The notes beneath the pieces are model-generated. The model was not told where the DNA came from, did not search any database, and worked only from the letters and a program-made list of their open reading frames with translations. A stretch of 38,697 nucleotides of DNA from assembly GCA_027315385.1 (NCBI GenBank), contig DAHUYD010000032.1:1-38697 (forward strand). The letters run 5' to 3'. This document shows, piece by piece, positions 15,892-32,490 of this stretch. The position numbers and the translations under genes are program-made. Numbering within the stretch: position 1 is the stretch's first letter; each line of letters begins with the position of its first letter. This DNA is from Acidobacterium sp. Its GTDB lineage: Bacteria > Acidobacteriota > Terriglobia > Terriglobales > Acidobacteriaceae.

Positions 15892-15907
15892 AATCCCTCG
15901 CCAGCTA

Positions 15908-16471: not shown

Positions 16472-16520
16472 AAGCAAGCGGAAAATCCGAAATTTGGGAA
16501 ACTTTCGTAAGGGGAGAACG

Positions 16521-16796: not shown

Positions 16797-16840
16797 AAGG
16801 GCCAATCCGCCGCAGATTCAGAGCATCCAACGGGGTATCA

Positions 16841-17269
16841 ATGAACGAGCCGGAAATAATTCAGGAGATTCTCGATCTCACGCGCACCATCGCGGTGGTG
16901 GGCATGAGCGATCGCGAGGGACGCGCGAGTTATGGCGTGTCGCGCTTCATGCAGAGCCGGGGATACCGGATCGTGCCGGTGAATCCGCTGATCGAACGTG
17001 CGCTGGGGGAGCAGGCGTATCCGGATCTGGCTGCGGCGCATGAGGCGCTGGGAGGGGAGATCGAGCTGGTGGACGTGTTTCGCGCGCCGGAGTATGTGCC
17101 GGAGGTGGTGAAAGAGACGATGCGGCTGCGGATTCCGTATCTGTGGCTGCAGGAAGGCGTGGTGCATGAGGAAGCCGCAAAATGGGCGGAGGACGCGGGG
17201 ATCAGAGTCGTAATGGACCGGTGCCTTCTGAAGGAGCGCATGGCGGCGGGATGGAAACAGCGGGGCTGA
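16841..17269 (+). CDS. CoA-binding domain protein (YccU family)
   Basis: 142 residues from ATG 16841; an upstream in-frame ATG at 16793 overlaps the regulator's stop and was not used. It is a single Rossmann-like CoA_binding_2 domain: IAVVGMSDREGRASYGV (17-33) holds the nucleotide loop and YRIVPVNP follows at 42-49. The family has no firmly established enzymatic role; it resembles the CoA-binding part of succinyl-CoA synthetase. It probably shares a transcript with the repressor. The last 129 bases recur in inverted orientation at 31081-31209 with 121 of 129 bases identical by my count. Confidence 0.9.
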   Translation: MNEPEIIQEILDLTRTIAVVGMSDREGRASYGVSRFMQSRGYRIVPVNPLIERALGEQAYPDLAAAHEALGGEIELVDVFRAPEYVPEVVKETMRLRIPYLWLQEGVVHEEAAKWAEDAGIRVVMDRCLLKERMAAGWKQRG

Positions 17270-17357
17270 GGGGGCGTGGGCGGCGGGATTGGGGAGGCTT
17301 CAGTGCGTGAGCCAGCCGCCGGCGCGAACCGTGAGCAGGGCCCAGGGAAAGATCCCA
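17141..17357. repeat. Left copy of an inverted junction repeat
   Basis: Contains the 3' end of the CoA-binding gene, a short spacer, and a glycosyltransferase-like 3' end on the opposite strand. Its reverse complement recurs at 30985-31209. The CoA-binding part (17141-17269) differs at 8 of 129 positions, including a run of about 40 identical bases; the glycosyltransferase tail part (about 17300-17357) differs at about 9 of 58; the spacer between them does not align. Further into the CoA-binding gene identity falls to roughly 82 percent over the next 51 bases. Confidence 0.85.
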
Positions 17358-17485
17358 GGTGCAGCGGGCGATTCGGTGTCGAGCGCAATGGCGTGCGCAA
17401 GCGAATACCAGCGATAGTAGCCTGGCCGGAAATGGAGCCCATCAGCCTGCCAGTCCCTGTCCTCCCGCGCGATGCGCGTCCGCCT
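17300..17485 (-). pseudogene. Glycosyltransferase-like C-terminal fragment
   Basis: A headless fragment with no start codon of its own. Its last residues, IFPWALLTVRAGGWLTH, nearly repeat the end of the intact membrane glycosyltransferase (IFPWALLTVRARGWLTR). The upstream part, with GLHFRPGYYRWYSLAHAIA, is unlike that protein, so this may be the tail of a second, different glycosyltransferase. It is in the same frame as the serine hydrolase gene and begins right after that gene's TAG stop (17492-17494). It faces the intact CoA-binding gene tail to tail, as the intact glycosyltransferase faces the CoA-binding remnant at 31 kb. Confidence 0.5.
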
Positions 17486-17491
17486 GAAAAT

Positions 17492-18946
17492 CTACCCCGC
17501 CGGCATCACCAGATACTGCTCCAGCTTCCCGTCCGGTTCCGTGTAGGTGGTCACCGTCAGCACCCGGCTGCTGTTCGGGAAAGTCACCCGGAACACCCGG
17601 AACGTCATCCCGCCGCGCAGGCTTTGCTCCGTCTGATCCATGCTCGCGGGCTTGCCCAGCGGCCCGAGGCTCGACTCGTAATCCGCGAGAGCCTGCTGAT
17701 CGAAATACGCATTGCACCACGGAGTGAACAGCGAGCGAGCGATCTTCCCATGCTGCAGGCCCTCGAAAACCCGCAATGCCTGCGTCTGCGCCTCTGTTGC
17801 CGTCTGCCTCGTCACCCCCAGCAGCAGTGGAGCCAGATCCCGCGCGATGCCGCCCGCGGCGCGGCTCGCGTCCTCATTAGTCAGCACTACTATCGCGACC
17901 TTGTCCTGCGGAAACACCATGTTCTCGTCCACGAAGCCTGACACCTCGCCCGAGTGCGCCAGATACGCGTGCCCATCCAGGCCGCTCACCTCCAGCCCCA
18001 GCGCGTAATGCGAATTCGCGCCATCCTTCAGCAGCACCGGCTTCTCCAACTCGTCATACGACTTCACCGTCAACAGCGTCCTGTCCATCACGCTGATGTC
18101 CCACTGCGCCAGGTCGTAGGCCGGCATGGCCAGCTCTCCCGCCGCGAACATCCATCCCCGGCCTTCCTTCGGCGCCGGCCGCGGCGCTGCCAAGGCGTAC
18201 CGAATCGTTCCCTGCGCGTCCTGCGGACCAAGCCGGTTCGCGTCCGAATCCCACACCTGGTCCATGTGCAGCGGCTGGAAGATGTGCTCTCTCAGAAACT
18301 GCATTAGCGGCTCGCCGCTCGCCAACTCCGCGACTCGCCCCGCGATCACGTAGTTCGTGTTCGAGTACTGCCACTGCGTCCCGGGAGGGAAATCCAGCGG
18401 CTTCTTCGCCCATTTGTCCAGAATGTGCTGCGCCGTGGTCGGGTTCAGCATCGGCGGCATCGCGTAGTCTTCCGGCCAGAAATCCTGATAGCCAGACGTG
18501 TGCGACAGCACCTCCTGGATCGTCACGTCCTGCGCGTCGGTCAGGTCCGGCAGCCACTTGCTCACCGGATCGTCCAGCGTGAGCTTGCCCTCCTGCTGCA
18601 GTATCAGGATCGCCGCCGCCGTGAACTGTTTCGAGATCGACCCAATCGAGTAGCGCATGGCGGGCGTCGCCATCACCGCCGGTTGCGAGCCCATCGCAAG
18701 ACGCGCCTCACCATAAGCCTGGGTATATTCGATCTTGCCATCGCGCACAATCGCCACCGACGCGCTCGGCACTCCCGTTCGCGCCAGCACCTGCCGCGCG
18801 GTCGCGTCGATCTGCTGCCGCAGATCCGCTGGAATGGAATTCACCCTCAGCCCCGCGGGACTCGCCTGCGCCCGCAGCGCCGGGCCCGCAGACGCCATCC
18901 ACGCCAGCGCGGCCCCGATCCCCACCCCCCGGACTCTTCCCGTCAT
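17492..18946 (-). CDS. Secreted beta-lactamase-family serine hydrolase
   Basis: 484 residues from ATG 18946, with AAGG six bases upstream; ATG 18985 is an alternative lacking such a site. Signal peptide ends near ALRAQA (about 27). The class C / serine hydrolase motifs are Ser103-Ile-Ser-Lys106 (SxxK), Tyr194-Ser-Asn196 (YxN) and His331-Ser-Gly333 in place of KTG. HxG is common in esterase or peptidase members rather than true beta-lactamases, so drug resistance should not be inferred. The catalytic domain spans about 40-370; the C-terminal 110 residues form an extra domain. Periplasmic. An esterase gene precedes it by 60 bases on the same strand. Confidence 0.88.
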   Translation of the reverse strand: MTGRVRGVGIGAALAWMASAGPALRAQASPAGLRVNSIPADLRQQIDATARQVLARTGVPSASVAIVRDGKIEYTQAYGEARLAMGSQPAVMATPAMRYSIGSISKQFTAAAILILQQEGKLTLDDPVSKWLPDLTDAQDVTIQEVLSHTSGYQDFWPEDYAMPPMLNPTTAQHILDKWAKKPLDFPPGTQWQYSNTNYVIAGRVAELASGEPLMQFLREHIFQPLHMDQVWDSDANRLGPQDAQGTIRYALAAPRPAPKEGRGWMFAAGELAMPAYDLAQWDISVMDRTLLTVKSYDELEKPVLLKDGANSHYALGLEVSGLDGHAYLAHSGEVSGFVDENMVFPQDKVAIVVLTNEDASRAAGGIARDLAPLLLGVTRQTATEAQTQALRVFEGLQHGKIARSLFTPWCNAYFDQQALADYESSLGPLGKPASMDQTEQSLRGGMTFRVFRVTFPNSSRVLTVTTYTEPDGKLEQYLVMPAG

Positions 18947-19006
18947 CACAAGCCTTGTCCTCCGGCATTCACCATAATCTTTCATCGCGCCCGAACACAA
19001 TTTGGC

Positions 19007-19927
19007 TCACCGCCCCAGCAGCCCAATTGTGTGCAGCCACGTCTCCGCAAGATCCGGCCAGCCCGTAATCGGCAGGTCCGTGCGCCGCAGCCCGTAGCCA
19101 TGTCCCCCGTGGGTGTAGACGTGCAGCTCCGCCGGCACTCCGGCTTGCTTCAGCTTCATGAAGTAATCGATCGCATTCTCCACGTGCACCGGATCGTCCT
19201 CCGCCTGCACAAGAAAAGTCGGCGGCACAGCGGAGCTGACGGGAATCGCCGGATTGAACTCGAAATTCTTCTCCGCGACCGAGAGATACCCGGGATAGAT
19301 AACCATCTCGAAATCCGGCCGGCAGCTCACTCCATCGGCGGCATCCACCGCCCGATACAAGCGCTCCCGCGCATGTGTGCTGAGCGCTGCCGCTAGGTAC
19401 CCGCCCGCTGAAAACCCCAGTACCCCGATCCGGTGCGCGTCGATATGCCAGGCCTCAGCATGTTCCCTCACCATTCCCATGGCCCGCTGCGCGTCCTCGA
19501 GCGCCTCAGCGGATTTGGGATACGGGCCGGTATGCGGTACGCGATATTTCAACAGCACGCAGTTCACCCCAATCGAGTTCAGCCATCCGCAGACTTCTGT
19601 GCCCTCCAGATCGATGGCCAGATAGTCGTAGCCGCCTCCCGGGAACACCAAGACCGCCGCGCCGCTGTTGTTTGTATGGGGAGCCGCGTAGAACGTGATC
19701 GTTGGCGCCGTGACATCGGCCAGCCGCGTCACCGGCCGTTTCGCCACCTCGTGGTATTCCGGGCCGGTCAGAAGGTGCTCCGGTCCGGCGGCAGTATCGG
19801 GACCGGGCGCGCCCCCGAGCCAGAGCTTCAGCGTCGGATGCCCCGGAGCCGGATGCCAGTCGGCTTGTGCGGAAACGGCCGGCGCCATCAGAGCCAGGGT
19901 GGCCAGAGTGAACAGGAATCTACGCAT
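19007..19927 (-). CDS. Secreted alpha/beta-hydrolase, BD-FAE-like carbohydrate esterase
   Basis: 306 residues with a signal peptide (MRRFLFTLATLALMAPAVSA, cut before QADW). The oxyanion region is VLVFPGGGYDYLA (92-104), the nucleophile Ser173 in GFSAGG, acid Asp245 in QAEDDPVHVEN and His276 in THGGHGYG: a complete triad in the usual order. Closest to the acetyl-xylan or feruloyl esterase-like group found in polysaccharide degraders; the exact ester is unknown. GGAGAGG eight bases upstream supports ATG 19927. Likely in one operon with the serine hydrolase downstream. Confidence 0.88.
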   Translation of the reverse strand: MRRFLFTLATLALMAPAVSAQADWHPAPGHPTLKLWLGGAPGPDTAAGPEHLLTGPEYHEVAKRPVTRLADVTAPTITFYAAPHTNNSGAAVLVFPGGGYDYLAIDLEGTEVCGWLNSIGVNCVLLKYRVPHTGPYPKSAEALEDAQRAMGMVREHAEAWHIDAHRIGVLGFSAGGYLAAALSTHARERLYRAVDAADGVSCRPDFEMVIYPGYLSVAEKNFEFNPAIPVSSAVPPTFLVQAEDDPVHVENAIDYFMKLKQAGVPAELHVYTHGGHGYGLRRTDLPITGWPDLAETWLHTIGLLGR

Positions 19928-19980
19928 GCCGGATCCTCTCCGGCCACCATATCACCCGGCACTGGCTTGGAGACGTCGCG

Positions 19981-21330
19981 CTAGTAAAGCGGGCGGGCCG
20001 CCCGCTGGGAAGAGGAGACAAATTGCTGCGGCGGGTTTGCGGGAGGATTCGCCGGCTGTGCCCCGGCTGTCGATGGACTCGCCGTGCTCCCCTTCTGGGT
20101 TGTCCCCTTTTCGCCGGCCTGCGCCTGGGTCGCGGCAGGCTGGCCGCTCGCAGCACCACCCCCCGTCACACTCGCCGAATCCGTCCGGGACTGGCCGCGC
20201 GCCGAACTTCCGGATGGCGGGGGCGTGTACCCAGGGTCGCCCGGCCGCTGCATCTCCGGGGGGAACTTCACCGGCTTCATCACCTGAGTTTGGCTGTTCG
20301 GCAGCTTCTCGCCGGGTTTGCTGAGCGTTGGCGCAGTCCCCGGAGCACTCTGTTCGGCGGTATCCTGCGCGGCGCGGTCGCCCAGTTCCACGGTGTTCAC
20401 GTTATGCACCTCGGCCGGCGGTTGCTTGCCCCAGTAATCTCCCATTTGGTTCTGGTCGCTTACCACAAGCGACTCGCCGACCTTGCCGATCTCCACCCGC
20501 ACGACAAAATCGCCGTCGAAGCGCACAAACTCCACCGGATCCGGCGCCTGTCCGTAAATCCAGATCACGAACGGCTTGCCATCCTGCTGCTCCCGGTCCT
20601 TTTGATCCGGTTCGCCCTTGGCATACAGAACCATCTGGCGGTCCATGCCTACCAGCACGCGATGCTCGAGTATCGCCGCGCGCAGGAAATCGGGCAGCGT
20701 CTCCGCGTATGCTTCCGCCGGAGACCGCACGCCGAAGTCGATCATCGGCTTCAGAAGCTGCTCCACCTGCTCGCCGGTCACATCCGGAACCCGCGACGGA
20801 AAAACCAGCACGATGCGCGATCCCGTCGGCGCAGGGTCCATCATCATCGGATTCTCGTCGTCGTATGGGTCCATCCCGATCGAGATGTGCCGCAAGATTC
20901 GATGCCTGTGAAACGGCCCGTTGTTCAGGTCGAGAACGATCCGGTTGCCCTCGACTTTAATGTCGGTAACCTGCACGCGCTGGCCGGGATGGGCTGCGAC
21001 TCCCTTCGTCTGCAACTCGTTAATGTATTTGTCGCCGGCCGGTTCCATGCCCCCGTTTGCGCGCAGTGTGATCACCGCAACCGGCAGCGGCCGCATCGCG
21101 AAGCCCTGCTCCGCCTGCAGCGACCGGATCAGCTCCTCGCGCCCCACCGTATTCAGCGGCGCGGCCGGGAGTTTCACCTCCGTGGGCTGAAAGTGCGCGT
21201 AGTGCGGGCTGATGTGTTGCGCCTGAACAATAAACACCTGACCCTGCGCGGCTGCCGAAATCAGCACCGCCAGGAGGGCGCAACCTGCGATCTGCGGAAA
21301 CATTTGGCCAGCGGATTTGGACCCCTGCAT
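19981..21330 (-). CDS. Secreted protein of unknown function with low-complexity tail
   Basis: 449 residues from ATG 21330, which has a GGGGG run just upstream; in-frame sequence before it looks non-coding. A signal peptide covers about residues 1-30 (core AGCALLAVLISAAAQGQ). Residues about 40-320 look folded and mixed alpha/beta, with no motif I recognise. The last 120 residues are a Pro/Ser/Gly/Ala/Thr/Gln-rich tail typical of disordered or wall-associated segments. No lipobox. Between it and pyruvate kinase lie 261 bases containing a terminator hairpin, so it probably has its own promoter. Possibly an Acidobacteria-specific family. Confidence 0.7.
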   Translation of the reverse strand: MQGSKSAGQMFPQIAGCALLAVLISAAAQGQVFIVQAQHISPHYAHFQPTEVKLPAAPLNTVGREELIRSLQAEQGFAMRPLPVAVITLRANGGMEPAGDKYINELQTKGVAAHPGQRVQVTDIKVEGNRIVLDLNNGPFHRHRILRHISIGMDPYDDENPMMMDPAPTGSRIVLVFPSRVPDVTGEQVEQLLKPMIDFGVRSPAEAYAETLPDFLRAAILEHRVLVGMDRQMVLYAKGEPDQKDREQQDGKPFVIWIYGQAPDPVEFVRFDGDFVVRVEIGKVGESLVVSDQNQMGDYWGKQPPAEVHNVNTVELGDRAAQDTAEQSAPGTAPTLSKPGEKLPNSQTQVMKPVKFPPEMQRPGDPGYTPPPSGSSARGQSRTDSASVTGGGAASGQPAATQAQAGEKGTTQKGSTASPSTAGAQPANPPANPPQQFVSSSQRAARPLY

Positions 21331-21561
21331 AAGGCCCCCTTCAGCGCGTGCAGCCAGGATTTCAACAGCATGGCCCCCTTCCCGCCAAATTTCAAGGACC
21401 ACTTCGTCGCAGGGAAGGCAAAACCGGGCAGCCAGCGCTTCGCCGGGACGGTCTTCGCCCTGGCGTATGTTGGTTGGAGCGAACAGGGGTCAAAACCGTT
21501 GCCGAACCCCTTTATGGCGCTGACGGCAGGTTGCGCCAGCCCCGTGGGAGGCCGGTGGCAT

Positions 21562-21581
21562 CCGGGAAGGGGCCTTCCCGG
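21562..21581 (-). terminator. Hairpin after pyruvate kinase, probable terminator
   Basis: CCGGGAAGG and CCTTCCCGG form a perfect 9-base-pair stem with only two bases between them in the written form, so a four-base loop with eight pairs is realistic. It lies ten bases beyond the pyruvate kinase stop on the minus strand. No T-run follows. Confidence 0.55.
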
Positions 21582-21591
21582 CTCACTCCGT

Positions 21592-23151
21592 TTACCTGGA
21601 GCGCTTGCCGGGATTGCCGGTTTTGCGCCCCGCGGCCCGGCGCGAAGTCCGGGCCGGTTTCTCCTGCCGCGTCTGCGGAGTCTCTGTCATCCGGTCGCCC
21701 AGAACGTGCAGCCGCAGGAAGTTGGTGGACCCTGATCGCGTCTGGGTACCGGCTACAATCCCCAAAATTTCCTTCGGCTTGACGAAACCACCCTGTTCCA
21801 GCGCGGTTTCGGCCTGCTCCACCATTTGCTCCGCCGTCAGCAGCTTCGGACATTTGATTGGGTGAACGCCCCACAGCAACCCCATGCGGTGAATCACCGA
21901 ATCAATGCTGGAGAGCGCAAAGATCGGCGGCTTCGGACGGTATTTTGAAAGTTGGCGCGCAGTCGTGCCGGTTTCCGTGAAGACGGCAATCGCGCTCACG
22001 TCCAGGTCTTCCGCGGCGTGGGCCGCCGACTCGCAGATGGTCTCGGCGATGGACAGCCTCACCCGGTTTGGCCGCGAATCCCACGAGCTGGTTTCGCGCA
22101 GATGCGATTCCGTCTCGCTGACGATCTTGGCCATCATCTTCACCGCTTCCACCGGATACTTTCCGGCCGCCGTTTCCGCCGACAGCATGACCGCATCCGT
22201 TCCGTCGTAAATGGCATTGGCCACGTCGGAGGCCTCGGCGCGCGTCGGGCGCGGATTCTCGATCATGGACTCCAGCATCTGCGTCGCCGTAATCACGGGC
22301 TTGCGATACTCCGCCGCGCAGCGGATCACGTGCTTTTGAATGGCCGGAACCTTTTCCGGCGGCATCTCCACGCCCAAATCCCCGCGCGCGACCATGATGC
22401 CGTCGGCGTTCTCCAGAATCGCCTCCAGGTTCTCAATTGCCTGCGGCTTCTCCAGCTTGGCTATGACCCAGGTCTCCAGACCCAGCGCCGCCACCCGGAA
22501 TCTCACGTGCCGCACGTCTTCCGCCGTGCGCACAAACGACACGGCGATGGCATCGACCTCGTGCTTCATCCCGAATTCCAGGTCTTCTTCGTCCTTCTCT
22601 GTCAGCGAAGGCACTCTCACCGCGATACCGGGGAGGTTGATGCCCTTATGCTCGCCCAGCATCCCGCCGTTGATCACCTCGCAGTCCACGTCTTCGCCGG
22701 GAATATCGATCACCCGCAACTCGATCAGGCCGTCCGACAGCAGAATTCGCGCTCCCGGCTCAAGGTTCTCCGCCAGGGTGGGAAACGTCGTCGCAATCAC
22801 GGCGGAGGTCCCTGGAATATCGCGAGGTGTGATTGTCAGCCGCTGCCCTGCCTTCAGCTGCACCGGAATTCGGTTCTTCAGCCGCCCCGTGCGGATCTTC
22901 GGCCCCTGTAAATCGCCGAGGATGCAAACGTTTTTCCCTTCCTCGCGCGCCAGCTTGCGCACCATCTCGATGAGCTTCAGTTTTTCCGGATGCGTGCCAT
23001 GCGAAAAGTTCAGCCGCGCCACGTCCAGCCCGGCGCGCAGCAACTCGCGAAACGTCCCTTCCTGTGCAGAGGCAGGTCCCAGTGTGGCAACGATTTTGGC
23101 GCGGCGCGGGTATTCTCCCGATAGGCCGGGCCCTGGCATAGAGAAGTTCAT
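21592..23151 (-). CDS. pyk: Pyruvate kinase
   Basis: 519 residues. Converts phosphoenolpyruvate and ADP to pyruvate and ATP, the last step of glycolysis, in the cytosol. Landmarks: KIVATLGPAS (19-28), Arg46 in ARLNFSHGTH, GDLQGPKIR (79-87), catalytic Lys232 with metal-binding Glu234 in AKLEKPQAIENL, and the ARGDLGVE signature at 255-262. The C-terminal allosteric-type domain extends to about 490. The last 25 residues are an unusual basic tail rich in Arg, Lys and Gln. A GGGGG run precedes ATG 23151. The 102 bases upstream include an A/T-rich patch (23226-23238 region) that may hold the promoter. Confidence 0.97.
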   Translation of the reverse strand: MNFSMPGPGLSGEYPRRAKIVATLGPASAQEGTFRELLRAGLDVARLNFSHGTHPEKLKLIEMVRKLAREEGKNVCILGDLQGPKIRTGRLKNRIPVQLKAGQRLTITPRDIPGTSAVIATTFPTLAENLEPGARILLSDGLIELRVIDIPGEDVDCEVINGGMLGEHKGINLPGIAVRVPSLTEKDEEDLEFGMKHEVDAIAVSFVRTAEDVRHVRFRVAALGLETWVIAKLEKPQAIENLEAILENADGIMVARGDLGVEMPPEKVPAIQKHVIRCAAEYRKPVITATQMLESMIENPRPTRAEASDVANAIYDGTDAVMLSAETAAGKYPVEAVKMMAKIVSETESHLRETSSWDSRPNRVRLSIAETICESAAHAAEDLDVSAIAVFTETGTTARQLSKYRPKPPIFALSSIDSVIHRMGLLWGVHPIKCPKLLTAEQMVEQAETALEQGGFVKPKEILGIVAGTQTRSGSTNFLRLHVLGDRMTETPQTRQEKPARTSRRAAGRKTGNPGKRSR

Positions 23152-23253
23152 CCAACCCCCAGTGTTTTCCAGTTCGGTGTTTTAGTTGTGTCCGTTATCT
23201 TCGGCGCGCGGGTCGTCGCGAATACTTTTATTTTATCGTGTGTTGAATCGTGC

Positions 23254-24186
23254 TCACACAGCGGCGGAATGCGCCGCCATATTCTCTTCCCCGCCGCCCG
23301 GCTGCGCCGTCTCTCCTGTCTGCGGCAGAGGAAACATGTACGCGTTGAATTCCGCCCCGATCAGGATGTTCAGCGACACCATATACAGCCACACCAGCGT
23401 CGCGATGCCGGCGCCCAGCGAACCGTAAACAATCGAGTAGTCAGAGAATCGGCTGAGATACCATCCGTAAATCAGGGTGGTAATGAACCAAGTCGCCGTA
23501 GCGATGGTGGCTCCGGGGAGCGTTTCGCGCCAGCGCCCGCGCACCAGACGGAATCTTCCCGAACCCGTCTTCAGCTTCTGCCGCGGCACCGCATAGTGAT
23601 AGACCAGCGCCAGAGAAAAGATGGTGGCGAAGACCGCGATAATCCATCGGGTCAGCCGCCAAAGCAGGATCAGGTAGAAGTGCAGTTCCAGATTTGTGTT
23701 CTCGATCATCCATCGCTCGATGCTGTGCCCAAAGGCCAGAAACAGCGTGGCTACTGCCATTGGGATCATCGCTCCCGGGACGAGAGCCAGCGCAACGAGG
23801 CGCTCCTTCCAGAATCCCCACAGGCCATGCGGCACGCGGTAGGCCCGCCGGAATCCCTCCATGAGCGACAGCAACATACCCATCGCGCCGTAAACCGTGA
23901 TCATTGCGGATCCGGTGACGATCCGGATGGACCGCGCGGGGTTGTAGACAAAGTAGCTCTGCACCAGATGCATAGTCTCCGGCGGCAGAATCTGCTGGAA
24001 ATCGGTCCGCAGATCCCCCCGCATGTCGCTGCCCGCCGGCATCGTCGCGAAAATCGTCGTCACCACCAGCACAGCGGGAAATATGCTCAGAATCGCGGAA
24101 TAGGCCGCGGCCTTCGCCATCGAGAAGGCCCCATGCCCGAAAGCCGACCACACAGCCCTGCGCAGGTTGTCGAACACGCGCACCAT
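23254..24186 (-). CDS. YihY/BrkB-family inner membrane protein
   Basis: 310 residues with about six transmembrane segments. The family-typical features are the AAYSAILSIFPAVLVV stretch near residue 27, RLTRWIIAVFATIFSLALVY in the middle and IATLVWLYMVSLNILIGAEF near 280. YihY/BrkB proteins were once annotated as ribonuclease BN in error; their transport or envelope role is unsettled. Length is normal. It lies 102 bases before pyruvate kinase and 124 bases after the thioredoxin-like gene, all on the minus strand. Confidence 0.9.
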   Translation of the reverse strand: MVRVFDNLRRAVWSAFGHGAFSMAKAAAYSAILSIFPAVLVVTTIFATMPAGSDMRGDLRTDFQQILPPETMHLVQSYFVYNPARSIRIVTGSAMITVYGAMGMLLSLMEGFRRAYRVPHGLWGFWKERLVALALVPGAMIPMAVATLFLAFGHSIERWMIENTNLELHFYLILLWRLTRWIIAVFATIFSLALVYHYAVPRQKLKTGSGRFRLVRGRWRETLPGATIATATWFITTLIYGWYLSRFSDYSIVYGSLGAGIATLVWLYMVSLNILIGAEFNAYMFPLPQTGETAQPGGGEENMAAHSAAV

Positions 24187-24229
24187 AAGCGTTCACAGTG
24201 TACCTGGGTCCCCGTCGGCCATGCGCCCA

Positions 24230-24248
24230 GGGGGTGGAGCGTACCCCC
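24230..24248. terminator. GC-rich hairpin between thioredoxin-like and YihY genes
   Basis: GGGGGT, seven-base loop, ACCCCC, with outer CATGC / GCATG arms at 24220-24224 and 24253-24257. Lies downstream of the thioredoxin-like gene on the minus strand. No T-run, so termination is possible but not certain. Confidence 0.35.
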
Positions 24249-24310
24249 ACCGGCATGTCCGAAGGCTGCGGATTCGCGCTGAAAACGCGGCGCGGGCTGA
24301 GTCGAGCGAA

Positions 24311-24835
24311 CTACCCTTTCCAGCGCTGTAGAAACTGTGTCACCAGCGCCGGGTCGACCCGCCCCATATCGGAAAACTCCCCTCCAGTCTGGCTGACGAG
24401 CACGCGGCCCTGGCCATCCAGCACCGCCAGCGCCGGTACGCCGTGCTTCAGCGGCATGCCGTACTGCGCCGCGATGTTCATATTGCGATCCATCTGCCCC
24501 ACATCCACATCCACCAGGATGTAGCCCCCTGCAATCAGGGCCGCGTTCGGCTGCTGATGAAAGTAGTAGTCGAGAATCTGGCAATCGCCGCACCAGTTCC
24601 CGCCGAAATCCAGCAGCACGTGCTTATGCTGCTGCGCCGCCTGGGCCACGGCCTCGTGGATCTCCGCAGCCGCGTCAGCGCCCGGATCAAAGATCCGGTG
24701 CACGCGAAAGGGTTGCGGCGCCGAGGTTTCCGGCGCCTCCGACGAGTTGCACGCCGTCAGCAGCGCGGCTGCGACAAGCATACAGGCGGCCAGAACATGC
24801 GGACGCGGAACACGATGCGACAATTGGCGGACCAT
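24311..24835 (-). CDS. Thioredoxin-like lipoprotein
   Basis: 174 residues from ATG 24835. A long open stretch upstream in this frame overlaps the Kdo hydroxylase gene on the same strand in another register and is not coding. The lipobox LLTAC puts Cys29 as the lipidated residue. The thioredoxin domain has NWCGDC (Cys82, Cys85) after HVLLDFGGN and a cis-Pro region at KHGVPALAVLD. The fold resembles DsbD-gamma/thioredoxin_7 proteins that pass or receive electrons at the periplasmic face. Redox partner unknown. It follows the Kdo hydroxylase gene by 95 bases. Confidence 0.85.
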   Translation of the reverse strand: MVRQLSHRVPRPHVLAACMLVAAALLTACNSSEAPETSAPQPFRVHRIFDPGADAAAEIHEAVAQAAQQHKHVLLDFGGNWCGDCQILDYYFHQQPNAALIAGGYILVDVDVGQMDRNMNIAAQYGMPLKHGVPALAVLDGQGRVLVSQTGGEFSDMGRVDPALVTQFLQRWKG

Positions 24836-24930
24836 AACTTGGAAACCAGGCGGCCCTGTTCGTGCCGACGCTATCAGAATGCCACGGAGAACGCCTTCGC
24901 CGCAGTCCGCATGCAACGCCGGCCGTGTTT

Positions 24931-25839
24931 TCAGGCCAGCCGCGACCTGGCCATCTCCTCCAGAATCCGCAGCGGTGAAACCTCGGGCCGCACCATTGCC
25001 TGCGGCCTCACCAGAAACGTCTGCTCCAATGCATACTGGCCGGCCAGCACCGCGTGCGGCACCGTGTCCGTATAGACCATCCAGCTCGATCCCGGCGGAA
25101 ACTGGAAAGCATATTTGGGACAGTGGGCCTGCCACTGCGGATCCTCTTTCAGAAAATTATGGAACCGCATCATGAAGTCGTCGTAGGGCGATCGTTTCAG
25201 CGATGGAATCGCCGCCCCGAGTCCCACCGCCCGCGCAGCCGCTTTGCCCGCCCGCGACAGCGCGTTGCCGGGATCGGGCGCAATGCGCCCTGGGGCAAAC
25301 TGCCTCACCATCTCAGCAAACGGGTCGCTTACCACCCAGTCGCGCGTACGCGCCGGATGAACGTTGCTGAAGAAGCGCAGAATGCGTGAGCCATGCGTGG
25401 GTCGCGTCGGGAATGCATCGGTATGCAGCAAATCGTTGCGCCTGCGCAGTGTCAGGTCCCGGCCCTGCTCCTCCTGCGGGCGGAAGCTGGCGTAATCCAG
25501 TTGCCAGTTCGCCTGATATGGCGCGAGAAACTCGGTCAGGAAGGCTGCCACGGATTGTGAATACCGCCGCATCGCGTCACGGAGCCGCTCGACCGCCGCC
25601 GGACTCGCCGCCTTCGCATCGAATCCGCTCAGCCGGTCGATGTTTGGCTTGTAGGCGATGTTCTTGTGCAGCGAGCTGTCCGTCTGCTGCTGCCCCAGCA
25701 GAAAACTGGCATCATCCTTGCTCAACGGCACAGGGCTCTTCGGAAAGTAGAGAATGTCTCCGGCTTCCAGCTGCGCGCACCACGCCCGCGACTGCTCCGG
25801 CGAAGCGGATGGCACCATCGCAATCGTGACGACCGCCAT
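24931..25839 (-). CDS. Kdo hydroxylase (KdoO-like, Fe(II)/2-oxoglutarate dioxygenase)
   Basis: 302 residues from ATG 25839. The iron site reads His139-Thr-Asp141 in LLHTDAFPTRPTHGSRILRF with the second His likely at His262 in TDTVPHAVLAG. The conserved FPKSPVPLSKDDASFLL N-terminal region and length fit Kdo 3-hydroxylases, which convert the inner lipopolysaccharide sugar Kdo to Ko, a change that strengthens the outer membrane. ATG overlaps the stop of the preceding 95-aa gene (TGATG, shared A) with GGAGGAG in front, so translation is coupled. The very long in-frame extension up to 26157 lies inside that gene in another register and was discarded. Confidence 0.85.
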   Translation of the reverse strand: MAVVTIAMVPSASPEQSRAWCAQLEAGDILYFPKSPVPLSKDDASFLLGQQQTDSSLHKNIAYKPNIDRLSGFDAKAASPAAVERLRDAMRRYSQSVAAFLTEFLAPYQANWQLDYASFRPQEEQGRDLTLRRRNDLLHTDAFPTRPTHGSRILRFFSNVHPARTRDWVVSDPFAEMVRQFAPGRIAPDPGNALSRAGKAAARAVGLGAAIPSLKRSPYDDFMMRFHNFLKEDPQWQAHCPKYAFQFPPGSSWMVYTDTVPHAVLAGQYALEQTFLVRPQAMVRPEVSPLRILEEMARSRLA

Positions 25840-26126
25840 CAGTCTCCTCCGGCGAGTTTCCTTCGGACCCAGCTTCCCGTCACCAGCACCATGCCTGTCG
25901 CCATCACGGCCACGCCTGTGGGCAGCGCCACGTAGCGGTAGGTGTCCTCGTAGCTGATATGCCCATGCGTTGCCGTGTTCCACACCAGCAGCGACATGAT
26001 CGCCAGAAAACAGCTCGCGAAGAAAGCGATGAATCCAGAGGCCAGCGCGAGGAAGAGGCTGGGAAACAGTCCGAGATCGCCGAGAGGAATGCCGAGCACC
26101 CGAGCCGGCTGCGCGTTGGCGCTCAT
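25839..26126 (-). CDS. Two-helix membrane protein coupled to the Kdo hydroxylase gene
   Basis: 95 residues with two hydrophobic segments (about 22-49, LFLALASGFIAFFASCFLAI included, and 67-86) and short soluble ends; a His/Tyr-rich loop (HGHISYEDTYRYV) lies between them. Its TGA shares one base with the hydroxylase ATG, so the two are translationally coupled and likely work together. No family recognised. Only 35 bases separate its ATG from that of a divergent gene. Confidence 0.78.
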   Translation of the reverse strand: MSANAQPARVLGIPLGDLGLFPSLFLALASGFIAFFASCFLAIMSLLVWNTATHGHISYEDTYRYVALPTGVAVMATGMVLVTGSWVRRKLAGGD

Positions 26127-26161
26127 AGGGGAAACTCCTTCGTCCAGTAGAATACATACTG

Positions 26162-26908
26162 ATGGCCGGTACCGCCCAGATCCCGCTGTTTCCCGCGTCG
26201 AAGGTTGCCCAGGAAGCCGCCGTGCGCCAGGCGGAAAACGGCCTCTGTTACGCCACTTTCGGGCAGACCAATCTCGATCAGACGGATCTGGAGCGGATCA
26301 TTCAGGCTGTTCCCTCGGTCGTGGCGGTCGCTCTGCGCCAGCGCGCCTGGTATTTCGTTCCGCTGGCGATCGGCGAAGACGAGGGCACCAGCGTTGCCCC
26401 GGATTACTCCGTGGACCTGAGCGACCGCGCCACCTGTCATCGCAATGTCCGGTTCGGCAATTCAGAGTGCATCTTCATCTCCACCCGCCTGATGCAGGAT
26501 CGTTTCGCGCTCGCCTTCGAATTCCTGATCAATGTCGGCCACCAGTTCGTCGACGCCATCGGCGTTCCGCAGAGCTTTGCCGATCTTGTCTGGTCGCAGG
26601 CGAATGCCGATGTCCGCGGCGAAACCAGCCACGACGCCTGGGAGAATCGCCGCCGCGCCCAGGATCGCAGCCGGGGACGAGAGGGCGACGAAAAAGCCAG
26701 GTCCGGCTTCTTCGAGACCGCCTTCGCCGACGCTCTAGCCATCTACATGCTTTCGCTCACGCTCGATTTCGACTACGCCGATCTGCGCGAGCGGGAATAC
26801 CCCCTCCTCGCCCCCGCCGCGCTCGCCGAGCGCCTGCGACACATTGCCGAGCTCTTCCCGCCCAATGCCGGCTATGAATTCGACATCCGGTACCGTCGCC
26901 GCGGCTAA
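26162..26908 (+). CDS. Conserved-looking soluble protein of unknown function
   Basis: 248 residues, no signal peptide or membrane segment. Visible features: FGQTNLDQTDLERIIQAVPS near 33, a His in LINVGHQFVDAIG (about 124), a charged insertion (NRRRAQDRSRGREGDEKARS) near 165, and a hydrophobic helix FADALAIYMLSLTLDFDY. Codon use and composition look coding throughout. It is divergent from the Kdo hydroxylase unit with only 35 bases between start codons, so the two promoters must overlap. No strong ribosome binding site is seen. I cannot assign a family. Confidence 0.72.
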   Translation: MAGTAQIPLFPASKVAQEAAVRQAENGLCYATFGQTNLDQTDLERIIQAVPSVVAVALRQRAWYFVPLAIGEDEGTSVAPDYSVDLSDRATCHRNVRFGNSECIFISTRLMQDRFALAFEFLINVGHQFVDAIGVPQSFADLVWSQANADVRGETSHDAWENRRRAQDRSRGREGDEKARSGFFETAFADALAIYMLSLTLDFDYADLREREYPLLAPAALAERLRHIAELFPPNAGYEFDIRYRRRG

Positions 26909-26949
26909 AGTTCTCTTTCATCGCGTCAGCTTTGTACTACGCTGACCCT

Positions 26950-27501
26950 ATGCGCATCCGCAAGCCGGCCCCGCCTCTCGACGAACCCGCTCTCTACGGC
27001 CTGGCGGTGAAGCTCCTGGGCCAGCAGATGCGCACCGTCGCTGAACTCAAACGCCTGCTGCGCCGCCGCCTCCAGCCGGGTCCGGCCGGGGAAGCGGCGC
27101 TTTCCGCCGTCATCGGCCGCCTCGGCGAGTACAAGTTCCTCGACGACGCTGGCTACGCCCGCGATTACGCGAAGCTGCGCCAGGAAAACTCCAGCTTCGG
27201 CGCTCGCCGCGTGCGGCAGGATCTCATCCGCAAAGGTATTCATGCCGGAGTGATCGCGGAAACGCTGGATGCCGCCTACGAAGGAGTCCCTGAGGAGGCG
27301 CTGGCGCGCCGTCATCTGGAACGGAAGCGCGTTACAAAGCCGGTCAATGATAAGGAAACTGCCCGTGTCGTGCGCCTGCTGATCCGCGCCGGCTTTGCCC
27401 CCGCCACCATCTTTCGGATACTCAGGCAGTGGAACGTGGACTACGCTGCCCTTGCCTCAATCGAATCCATGGATGAAGACGAGCACCCACCCGAGGAGTG
27501 A
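26950..27501 (+). CDS. recX: RecX regulatory protein
   Basis: 183 residues from ATG 26950; a TTG at 26932 is an alternative in-frame start. RecX binds RecA filaments and restrains recombinase activity. The three-helix repeats are visible: LLGQQMRTVAELKRLLRRRL, then GEYKFLDDAGYARDYAKLR with FGARRVRQDLIRKGI, and a final repeat ending around FRILRQW. The typical 'LDD..YA......R......G..RI...L...GI' pattern is clear. An acidic tail (MDEDEHPPEE) closes the protein. No recA is in the window. Confidence 0.9.
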   Translation: MRIRKPAPPLDEPALYGLAVKLLGQQMRTVAELKRLLRRRLQPGPAGEAALSAVIGRLGEYKFLDDAGYARDYAKLRQENSSFGARRVRQDLIRKGIHAGVIAETLDAAYEGVPEEALARRHLERKRVTKPVNDKETARVVRLLIRAGFAPATIFRILRQWNVDYAALASIESMDEDEHPPEE

Positions 27502-27614
27502 CCCGCGGCCGCTCCCGAAGGTTGCGCGGCTGTTAGGATGACCCAAAGCCGCACCGGTGGCACTGCGCCGGCGCCGGAGTTCCTCCGCTCCGGCCAACTC
27601 CACCGAAATCCGCC

Positions 27615-28865
27615 ATGCCCGTCTTTGGTCTCCTCAGCACGCTCGTCTGCCTGGCTGCGGCCTTCAGCCTGCTCAGCCACCGGTTCCTGCGCCTTCCGCG
27701 CGCTGTGGGAGTCATGCTGCTCTCGCTCGGCTGTTCGCTTGTGGTGGCCATCGCGGGACGCGCCGTACCCGGCCTGCACGCGGGCGCCGCGGCCCTCGTC
27801 AGCCACATCGACTTCTCCGCCGTGGTGCTCCACGGAATGCTGGCGTTCCTGCTGTTCGCCGGCGCCATGCAGCTCGATGTCAGCGCGCTCCGTCGCCAGA
27901 AGGCCCCCGTCCTTTCCCTGGCTGCCTTTGGCACATTGCTTTCCACGCTCACTGTCGCCGCTCTCCTCAAAGGTGTCCTGCACATTACCGGCCTGCGTGC
28001 GGGATGGGTTCTCTGTCTCCTTTTCGGCGCGCTGATTTCGCCCACCGATCCCATTGCGGTGCTGGAGATGCTGCGCCGCGTCGGCGCGCCGTCCACTCTC
28101 GAAGCCCAGCTCAGCGGAGAATCCCTCTTCAACGACGGGGTCGGCGCCGTGCTCTTCGTCACCCTGCTCACCTCCTTCTCGAACGGCCGCACTCCGACCC
28201 TCGGGAGCTTTACCTGGCAACTGCTCATCAGATCCGGCGGCGGAATCGCTCTGGGCCTGGCCCTCGGCTACTTCGCTTACCGCCTGCTGCGAACCGTCGA
28301 CAGCTACCGCGTGGAGGAACTGCTCACGCTGGGCCTCGCCATGGGCGGCTACGCGCTGGCCGACGCTCTCCACCTTTCCGCCCCGCTGGAGGTCGTCGCG
28401 GCGGGCCTCCTGGCCAGCACCCAGGCGCGCCCCCATGCCATGTCGGAGGAAACCCGCATCCGCGTCGACCAGTTCTGGGATATCATCGACGATCTCATGA
28501 ACGTTATCCTCTTTCTCCTGATTGGTCTTGAAATGCTGGTCATGCCCTGGAACTCCCACTACGTCTATGCCGGATTGCTCGCCATCCCGGTGGCTCTGGC
28601 CGCGCGCTGGCTCAGCGTGCGCGCCTCGCTGCTTCTCGTGCGCCCCTGGCATAAGCCGCTGCGGGGAGCCGTTCCGGCGCTCACCTGGGGCGGCCTTCGT
28701 GGCGGCCTGGCCGTCGCGCTCGCGCTCTCCATCTCACCCGGCCCTTTCCACGATCGCATCCTTGCCATCACCTACATCGTGGTCATCTTCGCTATCGTCG
28801 TCCAAGGACTCACCATGGGCAAACTCCTGCGCCGGCTCGGCCTTGCTTCTGGAGCCTGTTATTAA
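27615..28865 (+). CDS. NhaP-type Na+/H+ antiporter (CPA1 family)
   Basis: 416 residues with about 12 transmembrane helices. Exchanges Na+ (or K+) for protons across the inner membrane. Motifs: GALISPTDPIAVLEMLRRVG (138-157) and GESLFNDGVGAVLF (168-181), whose Glu169, Asn173 and Asp174 form the ion site of CPA1 proteins; LTWGGLRGGLAVALALS near 355-370 is the third conserved block. No long cytosolic tail, unlike KefC/RosB types. Starts 113 bases after recX; next gene is 319 bases away. Confidence 0.92.
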   Translation: MPVFGLLSTLVCLAAAFSLLSHRFLRLPRAVGVMLLSLGCSLVVAIAGRAVPGLHAGAAALVSHIDFSAVVLHGMLAFLLFAGAMQLDVSALRRQKAPVLSLAAFGTLLSTLTVAALLKGVLHITGLRAGWVLCLLFGALISPTDPIAVLEMLRRVGAPSTLEAQLSGESLFNDGVGAVLFVTLLTSFSNGRTPTLGSFTWQLLIRSGGGIALGLALGYFAYRLLRTVDSYRVEELLTLGLAMGGYALADALHLSAPLEVVAAGLLASTQARPHAMSEETRIRVDQFWDIIDDLMNVILFLLIGLEMLVMPWNSHYVYAGLLAIPVALAARWLSVRASLLLVRPWHKPLRGAVPALTWGGLRGGLAVALALSISPGPFHDRILAITYIVVIFAIVVQGLTMGKLLRRLGLASGACY

Positions 28866-29184
28866 CTTTTGCGTGAGCAGCGTTGCGGACGAACATCGGT
28901 CCAGACGAGGCGGAATCCGAAGGCTGTGGCGGGTCCACAGTCGAGGATGACAACGAAAGTATGGACCGGTTTGCGCCGCAACCCGAAGGGCTGGGGCCGA
29001 TTTCCCTCATTTCTTCGTCGCTCGTCGCTCGAAGCTGATATTCATCGCTCCTCGCTCCTCGAACTGAGAAAGATTGGCTCCCAGCGCCGCCCGCGGGAAA
29101 GTGAATAACAGAAGGCCCTAAGGCGCGAGCGGATACCCGCGCCTGACGACTGCATCCTCCGCTGTGCTATTCTTCAGCGTTCGT
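28866..29184. other. Intergenic stretch without a recognisable gene
   Basis: 319 bases between the antiporter and the B12-binding gene. It holds an imperfect simple-sequence patch (repeats of CGTCGCT and CGCTCCT, about 29013-29062) and an inverted repeat AGGCGCG / CGCGCCT (29121-29127 and 29138-29144) about 40 bases before the next start, which could be a leader hairpin. No coding signal convinced me. Confidence 0.5.
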
Positions 29185-29604
29185 ATGCCTCAGCGAACCG
29201 CTCCCATCCGCGTCCTCGTCGCCAAGCCCGGTCTGGACGGACATGACCGCGGCGCCAAGGTTATCGCCCGCGCCCTGCGCGATGCCGGCATGGAGGTCAT
29301 CTACACCGGGCTGCGCCAGACCCCGGAAATGATCGTCAATGCCGCCATTCAGGAAGACGTGGACTGCGTCGGCCTCAGCATCCTTTCCGGCGCTCACAAT
29401 GCCATCGTTCCCCGCATAACCGCGTTGCTCCGGGAACGCAATGCCGCCGATATTCTGGTCGTCCTCGGCGGCACCATACCTGGTCAGGATGCGCAGTTTC
29501 TGAAAGATCGCGGCGTCGCCGCCATTTTTGGCCCCGGCACTTCGCTCGACGCGGTGGTCCGGTTCATCCGTGAAAACGCCCCATCCAAAAGTACTGCGAT
29601 CTAA
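29185..29604 (+). CDS. Cobalamin-binding subunit of methylmalonyl-CoA mutase type
   Basis: 139 residues from ATG 29185; the open frame starts seven codons earlier but ATG 29185 gives the usual short N terminus. The B12-binding fold is shown by [17 protein letters not shown], where His in DGHDRG is the lower axial cobalt ligand (DxHxxG), with [10 protein letters not shown] and [11 protein letters not shown] as the other two signature strands. It matches the stand-alone small subunit that pairs with a separate catalytic mutase chain, which is not in this window. Pathway: rearrangement between methylmalonyl-CoA and succinyl-CoA, or a related acyl-CoA mutase. Confidence 0.92.
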
Positions 29605-29692
29605 GGCCTGATCCGCCCAACCCTCCATTTTTGTTCTCTTCCGCGGCCGACCGTGCGCATACAATCAGGGTGACCGCCCCCGGTACGCAATT

Positions 29693-31045
29693 ATGCAGGC
29701 CATCGAGCACCAACCCCAGGCTTCCCCGTTCCCTCCGGTTGCTGCCCCCGACATCTGGGACCTTCCACTGAAAGTGACTATCCTCGCAGGTTTGTGCGTC
29801 CTCATCTTCTTCAGCCTGCAGGCTCAGACGTTTCAGCCCCTCGTCACGGTGGCGGAAAGCCGCGGCATTCGCGCCGATTTCCTCCGGCCCAGCTTCCTCT
29901 GGTTCACCATGGGGTCCATGCTGCTGCTCTTCCGCACGCTGCTCTGGTTCACCTACCGGCCGCACCCTCTGGCCTCGCGCGAGGACGCCCCGCGCATGAC
30001 GGTCGTCATCCCCGCTTATAACGAGGGAGCCATGGTAGCCAAGGCCATCGACTCCGTAGCCGCGGCCAGCTACCCCCCCGATCGCCTCGAGATTTTTGTC
30101 GTAGACGATGGCAGCCGCGACGACACTTGGCAGCACATCAAGAAGGCTGCGACTCGCCATCCTGGCCGGGTTCAGACTTTGCGCCTCGATCAAAACAGCG
30201 GTAAGCGCGTTGCCCTCGCCGCCGCATTTCGACGCGCCAGCGGCGAAGTCTTCGTCACCGTCGACTCCGATAGCGTCGTCTCGCCCAATGCCCTGCTGGC
30301 GCTGGCCGGACCGTTCGCCTCGCAGCGCATCGGCGTGGTCGCCGGCAAGGTGCTGGTGTACAACCGCGCGGCCGGCATCATCCCCCGCATGCTGTACGTG
30401 CGCTTCACCCTGGCTTTCGACTTTATTCGTGCTTACCAGTCCACTTTCGGCACCGTCTACTGCAGCCCCGGAGCACTTTCCGCCTATCGCGCCAGCGCCG
30501 TGCTCGCCGTGCTCGACCGCTGGGTGAATCAGCGCTTCCTCGGTTGCCGGGCGACCATCGGCGAAGACCGCGCCCTCACCAACGATATTATGCGCCAGGG
30601 CTATGACAGCATCTACCAGCGCAATGCCGTGGTCCTGACCGTGGTGCCGACAAAATACCGCCAGCTCTGCCGCATGTTTCTGCGCTGGAACCGCAGCTAC
30701 ATTCGCGAGGAGGCCCGGCTTGCTCTCGTGCTCCCGCACCGGCCGCTTCTCCCCCGCATCATTGCCTGCTGCGACTCCCTGATCACAAACCTGCGCTTCC
30801 CCATCCTCTTCGTCACAATACTTCTGATGGGAACCCAGTTCCTCTATCACCCACTGATGTTTCCCCGCATGTTCGCTGCGATCGCCGCCGTTTCTCTCCT
30901 GTATTCGCTCTATTACCTCCGCAGCGAGCGCTCCCTCAGCTTCGTCTACGGCATCGTCTTCGAGTACTACTCGTTCTTTTTCATGTTCTGGATCTTCCCC
31001 TGGGCGCTGCTCACGGTTCGCGCCCGAGGGTGGCTCACCCGCTGA
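29693..31045 (+). CDS. Membrane-bound family 2 glycosyltransferase
   Basis: 450 residues. Two N-terminal membrane segments (about 27-43 and 68-87), a cytosolic GT-A domain, then three to four C-terminal segments, as in cellulose or hyaluronan synthase-like processive enzymes. Motifs: TVVIPAYNEG (103-112), VVDDGSRDDT (136-145), DSD at 191-193, GEDRALT with Glu291-Asp292, and FLRWNRS (329-335) standing for QxxRW. It probably polymerises or exports a surface polysaccharide; sugar unknown. The last 60 bases are part of an inverted junction repeat shared with 17.3 kb. No strong ribosome binding site precedes ATG 29693. Confidence 0.9.
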   Translation: MQAIEHQPQASPFPPVAAPDIWDLPLKVTILAGLCVLIFFSLQAQTFQPLVTVAESRGIRADFLRPSFLWFTMGSMLLLFRTLLWFTYRPHPLASREDAPRMTVVIPAYNEGAMVAKAIDSVAAASYPPDRLEIFVVDDGSRDDTWQHIKKAATRHPGRVQTLRLDQNSGKRVALAAAFRRASGEVFVTVDSDSVVSPNALLALAGPFASQRIGVVAGKVLVYNRAAGIIPRMLYVRFTLAFDFIRAYQSTFGTVYCSPGALSAYRASAVLAVLDRWVNQRFLGCRATIGEDRALTNDIMRQGYDSIYQRNAVVLTVVPTKYRQLCRMFLRWNRSYIREEARLALVLPHRPLLPRIIACCDSLITNLRFPILFVTILLMGTQFLYHPLMFPRMFAAIAAVSLLYSLYYLRSERSLSFVYGIVFEYYSFFFMFWIFPWALLTVRARGWLTR

Positions 31046-31209
31046 GACCTTCCGGATACGCAGTTGCAGCGATTCTCGGCTCAGCCCCGCTTCTTCCATC
31101 CCGCCGACATGCGCTCCTTCAGAGGGCACCGGTCCATTACGACTCTGATCCCCGCGTCCTCCGCCGATTTTGCGGCTTCCTCATGCACCACGCGTTCCTG
31201 CATCCAGAG
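30985..31209. repeat. Right copy of an inverted junction repeat
   Basis: Contains the 3' end of the glycosyltransferase gene, a 35-base spacer, and the 3' end of a CoA-binding gene remnant on the opposite strand. It is the inverted counterpart of 17141-17357. Identity is highest over 31081-31209 (121 of 129 bases), lower in the glycosyltransferase tail, and absent in the spacer. Confidence 0.85.
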
Positions 31210-31284
31210 ATACGGAATCTTCAGCCATATCGCCTCTTGCACCACCTGCGGCACGAACTCCGGCGCGCGCTGATCCTGCGGCAT
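31081..31284 (-). pseudogene. Truncated CoA-binding protein (YccU family) remnant
   Basis: About 60 C-terminal residues of the CoA-binding protein survive: RAPEFVPQVVQEAI, KIPYLWMQERVVHEEAAKSA and EDAGIRVVMDRC align with residues 81-142 of the intact copy at 16841-17269. The Rossmann nucleotide loop is missing and the sequence before RAPEF is unrelated. An internal ATG gives a 67-residue frame, but without the nucleotide loop it should not bind CoA. It faces the glycosyltransferase tail to tail with 35 bases between stops. Confidence 0.85.
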
Positions 31285-31756
31285 CTGGAATGTGGGCTTG
31301 GCGCCGAAGACGGTGCGGGCGATGGCGCGACGGGAGAAGATCCGTGGTCCTGACCGCGGATTTCCAGAAGCCCCTCAGAGCTTTTTGGCGCATTTTTTTG
31401 CTCTGCATCATGAGGGCATGGAACGGGCTCCTCACACCTTCCAGGCCCCCGGACCCGAATTACTCAACTTCAATATGCCTGAGAAACACTTTTTCAGGGT
31501 CGACTATCTCGCGTTTCCGGCGGCGGTGGCTTTTTCTGCACAGCATTCTGACCGATCCGAACCTGAAGAACGGACATCCCGACCTGCCGGATGGCGGCAA
31601 GAAATTCATCCAAGCTGTGCACTTCCCGGCAATGTGGCCACGGCGGTTCGCTGGCGCCCGCGTGGCGGGGGATTGCTCCCGCGCCGCGCCTGGGCGGTGG
31701 AAACATCTACTCTGGCGGCGCGGGAACCGACTGCCTGAAAGCTGAATGCGCCGGAT
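31285..31756. other. Gene-poor stretch beside the CoA-binding remnant
   Basis: 472 bases with no gene I can support. Both strands have short open frames (for example plus 31418-31738 and minus 31494-31706) without start signals or family resemblance. It lies where the strand composition changes back from C-rich to G-rich on the plus strand, as expected near a rearrangement breakpoint. It may hold decayed remains of genes. Confidence 0.5.
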
Positions 31757-32104
31757 TTACGGCTGTGGCTCCGGGGGCGTGAGATGGAACCAGCGGCGGG
31801 CGGCGGCGCTGAAGAGAATCCAGGCAAAGATGGCAAGAAGCGCGCTGTGCACGGCGAGTCGACGCGGTTCGTGGACGCTGATGGCGACGTGGAAGGCGAT
31901 CCAGACGAGGGCCAGCCACCGCGCCCAGTTGTGCCGACGGAGGAGGAAGATGCCGATGATGACAGCGAGGAATTCCATCGATTCGACCCAGACGGCGTCC
32001 GGCTGATGGACGAGGAGGCCGCGGAAGTGTGCGGCAAAGCCGATGAACCCAACCGCCAGATACAAACAGGCGAGCAGAGTGACCGAGATTGGGCGTCGGC
32101 GCAT
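31757..32104 (-). CDS. Small four-helix integral membrane protein
   Basis: 115 residues with four hydrophobic segments: about 7-27 (VTLLACLYLAVGFIGFAA), 40-56 (SMEFLAVIIGIFLL), 61-77 (RWLALVWIAFHVAI) and 86-101 (HSALLAIFAWILFSAA), then a Pro-rich tail. Short Arg/His-rich loops join them. ATG 32104 is preceded by TTGGA, a modest ribosome binding site. No family recognised; it stands alone between a gene-poor stretch and the phoU upstream region. Confidence 0.7.
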   Translation of the reverse strand: MRRRPISVTLLACLYLAVGFIGFAAHFRGLLVHQPDAVWVESMEFLAVIIGIFLLRRHNWARWLALVWIAFHVAISVHEPRRLAVHSALLAIFAWILFSAAARRWFHLTPPEPQP

Positions 32105-32490
32105 GTGTCCAAGATGCTACAACGCTCAGGCCGCGGGGGTCCAGGCGTGTGCGGGAGCGCGGTTCTGGGTGCCCCCGGTGTATATTTCCTTCTTCGCCGT
32201 GGAGATTAACGTGGCGTTCAAGCGGGCGGGGTAGGGTAGTTCGAGCCTCTGCGCAGCATGGGCAAGGGAAGCAGGACAGGGACGCGGGGGCGGCGTTGAC
32301 GTCGACCCTCTGAAGGCGTCGCATGGATGCAACCTCATGATCGAGGAAAGCGCGCCGCGGATTCGGGCCAATAGGTGGGCGGCGTTGACTGGGTGCTCGA
32401 TCGGACGGCTTATCGAGTTCGATTCGACCGCCGGATTTTTCACAGAATTCAGCGGCGGCGGGCGGAAGATTACATTACGGGTAGGTTCGG
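32105..32490. other. Upstream region of phoU, no gene seen
   Basis: 386 bases between two divergent genes. It should carry the promoters for phoU and for the small membrane protein. I looked for a Pho-box-like direct repeat before phoU and found nothing clear. A short plus-strand frame (32337-32564) overlaps phoU and looks spurious. Confidence 0.5.

Follow-up and report, generated by a model that had tools for sequence, protein, structure and literature searches.

What has reversed the strand composition of some 14 kb in the middle of this contig, and can the reversal be dated? The window, i.e. the whole stretch of 38,697 nucleotides analysed here, is a complete contig (G000:C77) from an assembly of 194 contigs that is 91.4% complete and comes from an uncultured relative of Acidobacteriaceae. 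In 1-kb windows, the GC skew of the plus strand is positive up to about 17 kb, negative for window starts 17501–30501, close to zero at 31001–32000 and positive again thereafter, with means of +0.146 for positions 1–17080, −0.107 for 17356–30989 and +0.200 from 31271 to the end. The cumulative G−C count has its maximum at 17437 and its next minimum at 31627. An earlier note, made from the letters alone, had proposed an inverted 14-kb segment with a change of composition at both edges, and the full skew computation bears this out with sign changes at about 17.4 and 31.6 kb; the G:C counts that the note had made by hand in sample rows (93:66 outside, 100:127 inside) proved exact on recounting. 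With the two boundary blocks excluded, 26 of the 27 inner 500-bp blocks have a negative skew, against 0 of 49 outer ones, and a sustained drop as large as the observed one arose in none of 20000 permutations of 500-bp blocks. The sign is also independent of gene orientation, as the note had held, since nine segment genes keep the sign of the coding-strand GC3 skew of their orthologues in the relatives G003 and G006.

Twelve genes are predicted in the segment, namely those for a serine hydrolase/beta-lactamase-like protein, an alpha/beta hydrolase, orf473, pyruvate kinase, a BrkB-like protein, orf210, a Kdo hydroxylase, orf248, RecX, a Na/H exchanger, a B12-binding protein and a family 2 glycosyltransferase. 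By our own gene choice six lie on each strand, so that the flip is neutral in the number of head-on genes. The G-rich strand is generally the leading strand, and if this holds for the present locus, pyruvate kinase was turned head-on by the flip. No tRNA or Rfam RNA was found within the window, and a Pfam scan of the 30 window proteins, with shorter ORFs outside the scan, found no site-specific recombinase family, of the kind expected close to a phase-variable segment that is inverted by site-specific recombination.

For gene order, the 30 window proteins were set against 20 stretches from the 11 genus relatives offered by the search. In every one of the 11 the CoA-binding and B12-binding genes are convergent, no more than about 2 kb from each other; the window has both on one strand, about 12 kb apart. 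In G003:C7 and G006:C341 the genes stand in the order that is obtained by flipping the segment back, beginning with the CoA-binding gene, the glycosyltransferase, the B12-binding gene, the Na/H exchanger and RecX, and continuing with orf248, Kdo hydroxylase, BrkB, pyruvate kinase and orf473 (ten shared genes in total). In both relatives the glycosyltransferase and the CoA-binding gene, each intact, are tail to tail, exactly as the earlier note had reconstructed, and the possibility it had raised against itself, that the relatives all share the order of the window and lack the repeats, does not apply, G003 and G006 being ordered differently. With the skew reversed at both edges and the flipped-back order in these two genomes, the 14-kb inversion is almost certainly real, and the segment was inverted in the G000 lineage after its split from the closest relatives examined.

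Skew in the relatives is positive in all 23 2-kb bins of G003:C7 and in all 6 of G006:C341. When the stretches of the other relatives are oriented with the CoA-binding gene on the plus strand, the skew is negative in all bins of the measured stretch in G004, G005, G007 and G010 (L087, L091, L094 and L092, respectively) and in 8 of 10 bins of G001, positive in 9 of 10 bins of G002, and weak or mixed in G008, G009 and G011. The sign of the whole neighbourhood thus varies among lineages, and a flip limited to the segment was seen only in the window. The opposite neighbourhood skew of G004, G005, G007 and G010 compared with G003 and G006 hints at larger rearrangements within the genus. A glycosyltransferase at the CoA-binding locus was found only in G000, G003 and G006 (by a search of seven of the 11 genus relatives, the other four being represented by their fetched stretches only), and the next relatives of the gene, 65–68% identical, lie in other Acidobacteria MAGs (L101, L103); the gene may be a recent gain.

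The other end of the segment is less uniform among the relatives. G003 and G006 are without the two hydrolase genes after orf473, and beyond orf473 G003 carries the membrane gene, pstB, phoU and two helicase/nuclease genes, which we take to be AddAB-like. The earlier note had expected that the serine hydrolase would adjoin the membrane gene at 31.7 kb in close relatives, an adjacency present in no relative among the stretches examined. Instead, what comes after the serine hydrolase is PstC, PstA, PstB and phoU in G002, PstS with more pst-type genes and then phoU in G005, and a PstS-like gene (Pfam binding-protein match) in G004; NCBIfam cut-offs were passed by PstC, PstA and PstB of G002, PstS of G005 and PstB of G003. 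In G002 and G005 the serine hydrolase thus stands upstream of phoU, which fits the other end of the inversion. Judged from these gene orders, the second breakpoint falls where the relatives differ among themselves, and its exact ancestral form is preserved at none of the fetched loci. Between the membrane gene and phoU (32105–32490) G000 has pst relics only, while G003 retains pstB and G002 retains pstC, pstA and pstB, and the phosphate-uptake genes seem to erode in this clade.

The two edges of the segment carry inverted copies of one and the same convergent junction, an interval of 275–280 bp made up of the tails of the CoA-binding gene and the glycosyltransferase (Table 1). Two pairs of inverted repeats, 17081–17270/31080–31269 (190 nt, 91% identity) and 17292–17355/30990–31053 (64 nt, 84% identity), are parts of this single interval, which aligns over 281 columns with 87% identity and a longest identical run of 41 bp. 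Both the inverted copies and the complementary losses described in the earlier note are there: the left joint keeps the whole CoA-binding gene and the right joint the whole glycosyltransferase, and the partner is a relic each time. The CoA-binding relic of the right joint has its own reading frame without an internal stop. A DNA search of the same genome with 17060–17495 gave matches at the two joint places only. G003 and G006 have a single CoA-binding match each, so that a second joint copy was not found there (G006 is 88% complete). The two joint copies cluster together against G003 and G006 (FastTree support 0.993), indicating that the duplication postdates that split.

Table 1. Features of the inverted segment, its two joints and their neighbours.
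Feature	Coordinates	Strand	Remarks
CoA-binding gene (PF13380)	16841..17269	+	Intact; left flank
Left joint copy	17081..17355	+	CoA-binding tail, short intergenic part, glycosyltransferase relic (last 56 nt, 17300–17355)
Inverted segment	17356..30989	.	Skew sign and gene order vs G003/G006
Serine hydrolase gene (PF00144)	17492..19000	-	Segment end opposite the glycosyltransferase
Glycosyltransferase family 2 gene	29693..31045	+	Intact; right segment end; faces the CoA-binding gene in G003 and G006
Right joint copy, inverted	30990..31269	-	Glycosyltransferase tail, intergenic part, CoA-binding relic (last 189 nt)
IS630-family transposase fragment	31261..31340	+	N-terminal part with internal deletion; overlaps the end of the CoA-binding relic by up to 9 bp
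Ferric-reductase-like gene (PF01794)	31503..31686	+	Decayed fragment
Small membrane protein gene	31757..32104	-	Weak, sub-threshold ASTER match; nearest gene on the right of the segment; followed by pstB and phoU in G003
Two relic stretches (~32179–32281, ~32399–32490)	32179..32490	+	Ahead of phoU; match the PstS-PstC-type intergene region and the pstB end of relatives

The differences between the joint copies are unevenly spread, with 17 of 186 sites in the CoA-binding part, 7 of 53 in the glycosyltransferase part and 16 of 36 in the intergenic middle. Changes in the CoA-binding part comprise 10 specific to the right relic, 4 specific to the functional left copy, 3 that are ambiguous and 17 that are shared. 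The intergenic stretch of the left joint (17270–17302) diverges from the right copy far more than its flanks do, and, judged by eye, the right copy of this middle part resembles G006 more. Such a divergence would run counter to a copy made in one piece and decaying evenly. The 136 bp between the left relic and the stop of the serine hydrolase (17356–17491) had no match among the fetched loci, and one frame from this stretch had no Pfam match.

The age of the inversion was estimated from strand-specific substitutions at four-fold sites common to G000, G003 and G006, 1313 in eight flank genes and 1443 in nine segment genes. In the flanks, the four-fold skew has risen to 0.509 in G000 from the level of G003 and G006 (0.449 and 0.430), and in the segment it has fallen to 0.333 (0.382 and 0.356 in G003 and G006). 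The difference in differences for G000 is −0.106 (95% interval −0.179 to −0.033), which excludes zero; by itself, the fall in the segment does not reach significance (−0.036, −0.088 to 0.016). When the segment substitutions are modelled as drawn partly from the flank spectrum and partly from its complement, with the flank rates taken as known and 536 of the 1313 flank sites coming from one gene, the inverted fraction of the G000 branch is 0.24 (site bootstrap 0.14–0.34, gene bootstrap 0.11–0.37; 2ΔlnL of 26.9 vs zero). The same estimate for the control lineages is −0.08 in G003 (2ΔlnL 1.0; gene bootstrap −0.21 to 0.45) and 0.08 in G006 (2ΔlnL 0.3; site bootstrap −0.22 to 0.60), the bootstrap ranges of both being so wide that they span the value for G000. 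A simple count of skew-lowering to skew-raising changes shows no difference between segment and flank in G000 (149:92 vs 117:73, p = 1), and gives p = 0.057 and p = 0.067 in the two control lineages. The full spectrum does tell segment and flank apart in G000, as does the difference in differences.

The decay of the CoA-binding relic provides a second clock. It has 10–13 changes of its own in 186 sites, and the length of the G000 branch, derived from the distances, is about 0.29 substitutions per site in the flank and 0.34 in the segment, which places the duplication at 0.17–0.26 of the branch. This range and the value of about 0.24 from the substitution spectrum agree, though with wide error, so that inversion and duplication look like a single event.

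We propose that one break would have fallen in the convergent junction of the CoA-binding gene and the glycosyltransferase, and a second one in the space that separates the serine hydrolase from the small membrane gene. A stagger of about 275 bp in the former break, or a copying of the interval during repair, would have provided each new joint with its own copy of the interval on rejoining of the reversed segment, such that the CoA-binding gene and the glycosyltransferase could stay whole, each facing a relic of its partner. One event of inversion with joint duplication, by a staggered break or by copying during repair, is the probable course, and it is likewise likely that the duplication was made in the same event as the inversion. 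G000 has Ku and the LigD polymerase domain, as have all 12 of the genus genomes searched, so that a joining of filled-in staggered ends would be possible; the ends would presumably have been filled in and joined without homology, and we give end joining as the route a little less than an even chance.

The same final state would have been reached in two steps, if an inverted copy of the joint had first arisen near the membrane gene and homologous recombination between the copies, now 87% identical with a 41-bp identical run, had later flipped the segment, possibly repeatedly. However, the two ages agree, within their wide error, which speaks against a late recombination between old repeats, only one CoA-binding match is present in each of G003 and G006, and the segment was seen in one orientation only (single contig, single assembly); a two-step history is therefore considered unlikely.

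The right joint raises the further question of a mobile element, since the transposase fragment starts where the CoA-binding relic ends. Up to 9 bp are shared at this join, 8 of the 9 with the copy of G003 and fewer with that of G008. Relatives of the fragment in G008:C16 and G003:C25 bear a transposase-type helix-turn-helix sequence. In two frames the G008 gene gives sub-threshold matches to an IS630-family transposase model (71.4 and 49 bits; cut-off 100), and in Pfam it matches DDE_3. Excision of an IS630-family element, or its attack at the second site, might thus have caused the break behind the inversion. Yet only an N-terminal fragment is present, at one end only, the left joint gave no transposase match among the fetched loci, and the site also holds ferric reductase and pst relics, such that debris may simply accumulate there; we rate this route as rather unlikely. 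Inversion between IS copies at both ends was rejected, as among the fetched loci a transposase match came up for the right end only.

The right joint could also be a patchwork of replication repair, with the inversion brought about in this free-living bacterium by template switching among several loci, primed by short matches, and not by a simple staggered cut. Pieces of the CoA-binding, IS630-family transposase and ferric reductase genes are crowded into some 600 bp there, and the unlike stretch of about 30 bp and the 136 bp without a match among the fetched loci lie at the left joint; nevertheless, we hold such an origin to be quite improbable. The ferric-reductase-like fragment is the sole trace of this gene in the G000 assembly; a far longer match is present elsewhere in 8 of the 11 genus relatives. 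Its capture by copying is not favoured, because no parent copy was found in G000, the assembly of which is incomplete. For 31340–31502, nothing convincing as a source was found among the fetched loci, and one frame from 31503 onward had no Pfam match.

An assembler might have crossed the inverted joint copies wrongly, and the inverted order does rest on one contig of one assembly. Against a wrong join, the longest identical run between the copies is 41 bp, and the strand bias of the segment's own substitutions is reversed over roughly a quarter of the branch, which would not be expected of an artefact; the agreement of the two ages speaks against misassembly as well, which makes it very improbable. 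Two skew sign changes within 14 kb might bring to mind a foreign island or a replication origin or terminus, a reading with practically no chance that was rejected, given that G003 and G006 both keep synteny over ten segment and joint genes and show no skew sign change there.

The one-event reading has a known counterpart in DNA duplication associated with inversion (DDAI), reportedly described in Helicobacter pylori by Furuta in 2011, and DDAI is the best reading of the present pattern. As in DDAI, the segment is inverted relative to close relatives, the DNA of one breakpoint reappears in inverted form at the other, gene remnants result, and the interval is single-copy in the uninverted G003 and G006 (one CoA-binding match each, with G006 88% complete). 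DDAI is also described as arising without pre-existing repeats or an IS; on this point the agreement of the two ages stands beside the transposase fragment at one joint. For Thermus tengchongensis 15W, DDAI is claimed too (PMC8963470). Unlike the cases in Helicobacter pylori and Thermus, the host here is a relative of Acidobacteriaceae, the interval of 275 bp lies across two converging gene tails, both genes are whole, and the event has aged enough for decay and strand bias to date it. A duplicated break interval can in this way let an inversion cross two gene tails with neither gene lost.

Breakpoint duplications in Drosophila are attributed to staggered breaks. There, inversions carry inverted duplications at their breakpoints (PMC7584159). 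The likeness to these staggered-break inversions lies in the inverted duplications at the inversion breakpoints; in contrast to Drosophila, the present case is bacterial, and a duplication was found from only one of the two breakpoints. That a local reversal of GC skew marks an inverted fragment, and that the skew recovers slowly, is stated in an article on gene inversions detected by skew (Merrikh and Merrikh, 2018; PMC6220195). A literature search for an inversion with skew in Acidobacteria gave no paper. Compared with detection by skew, the inversion is shown here independently by gene order and by the relic joints. The type of rearrangement is already known, and the G000 segment is a clean, datable example of it, a natural inversion backed jointly by gene order, joint relics, strand bias and two agreeing ages. 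Inversions dated in this way could calibrate the rate of GC-skew recovery, on which inferring past gene inversions from skew depends.
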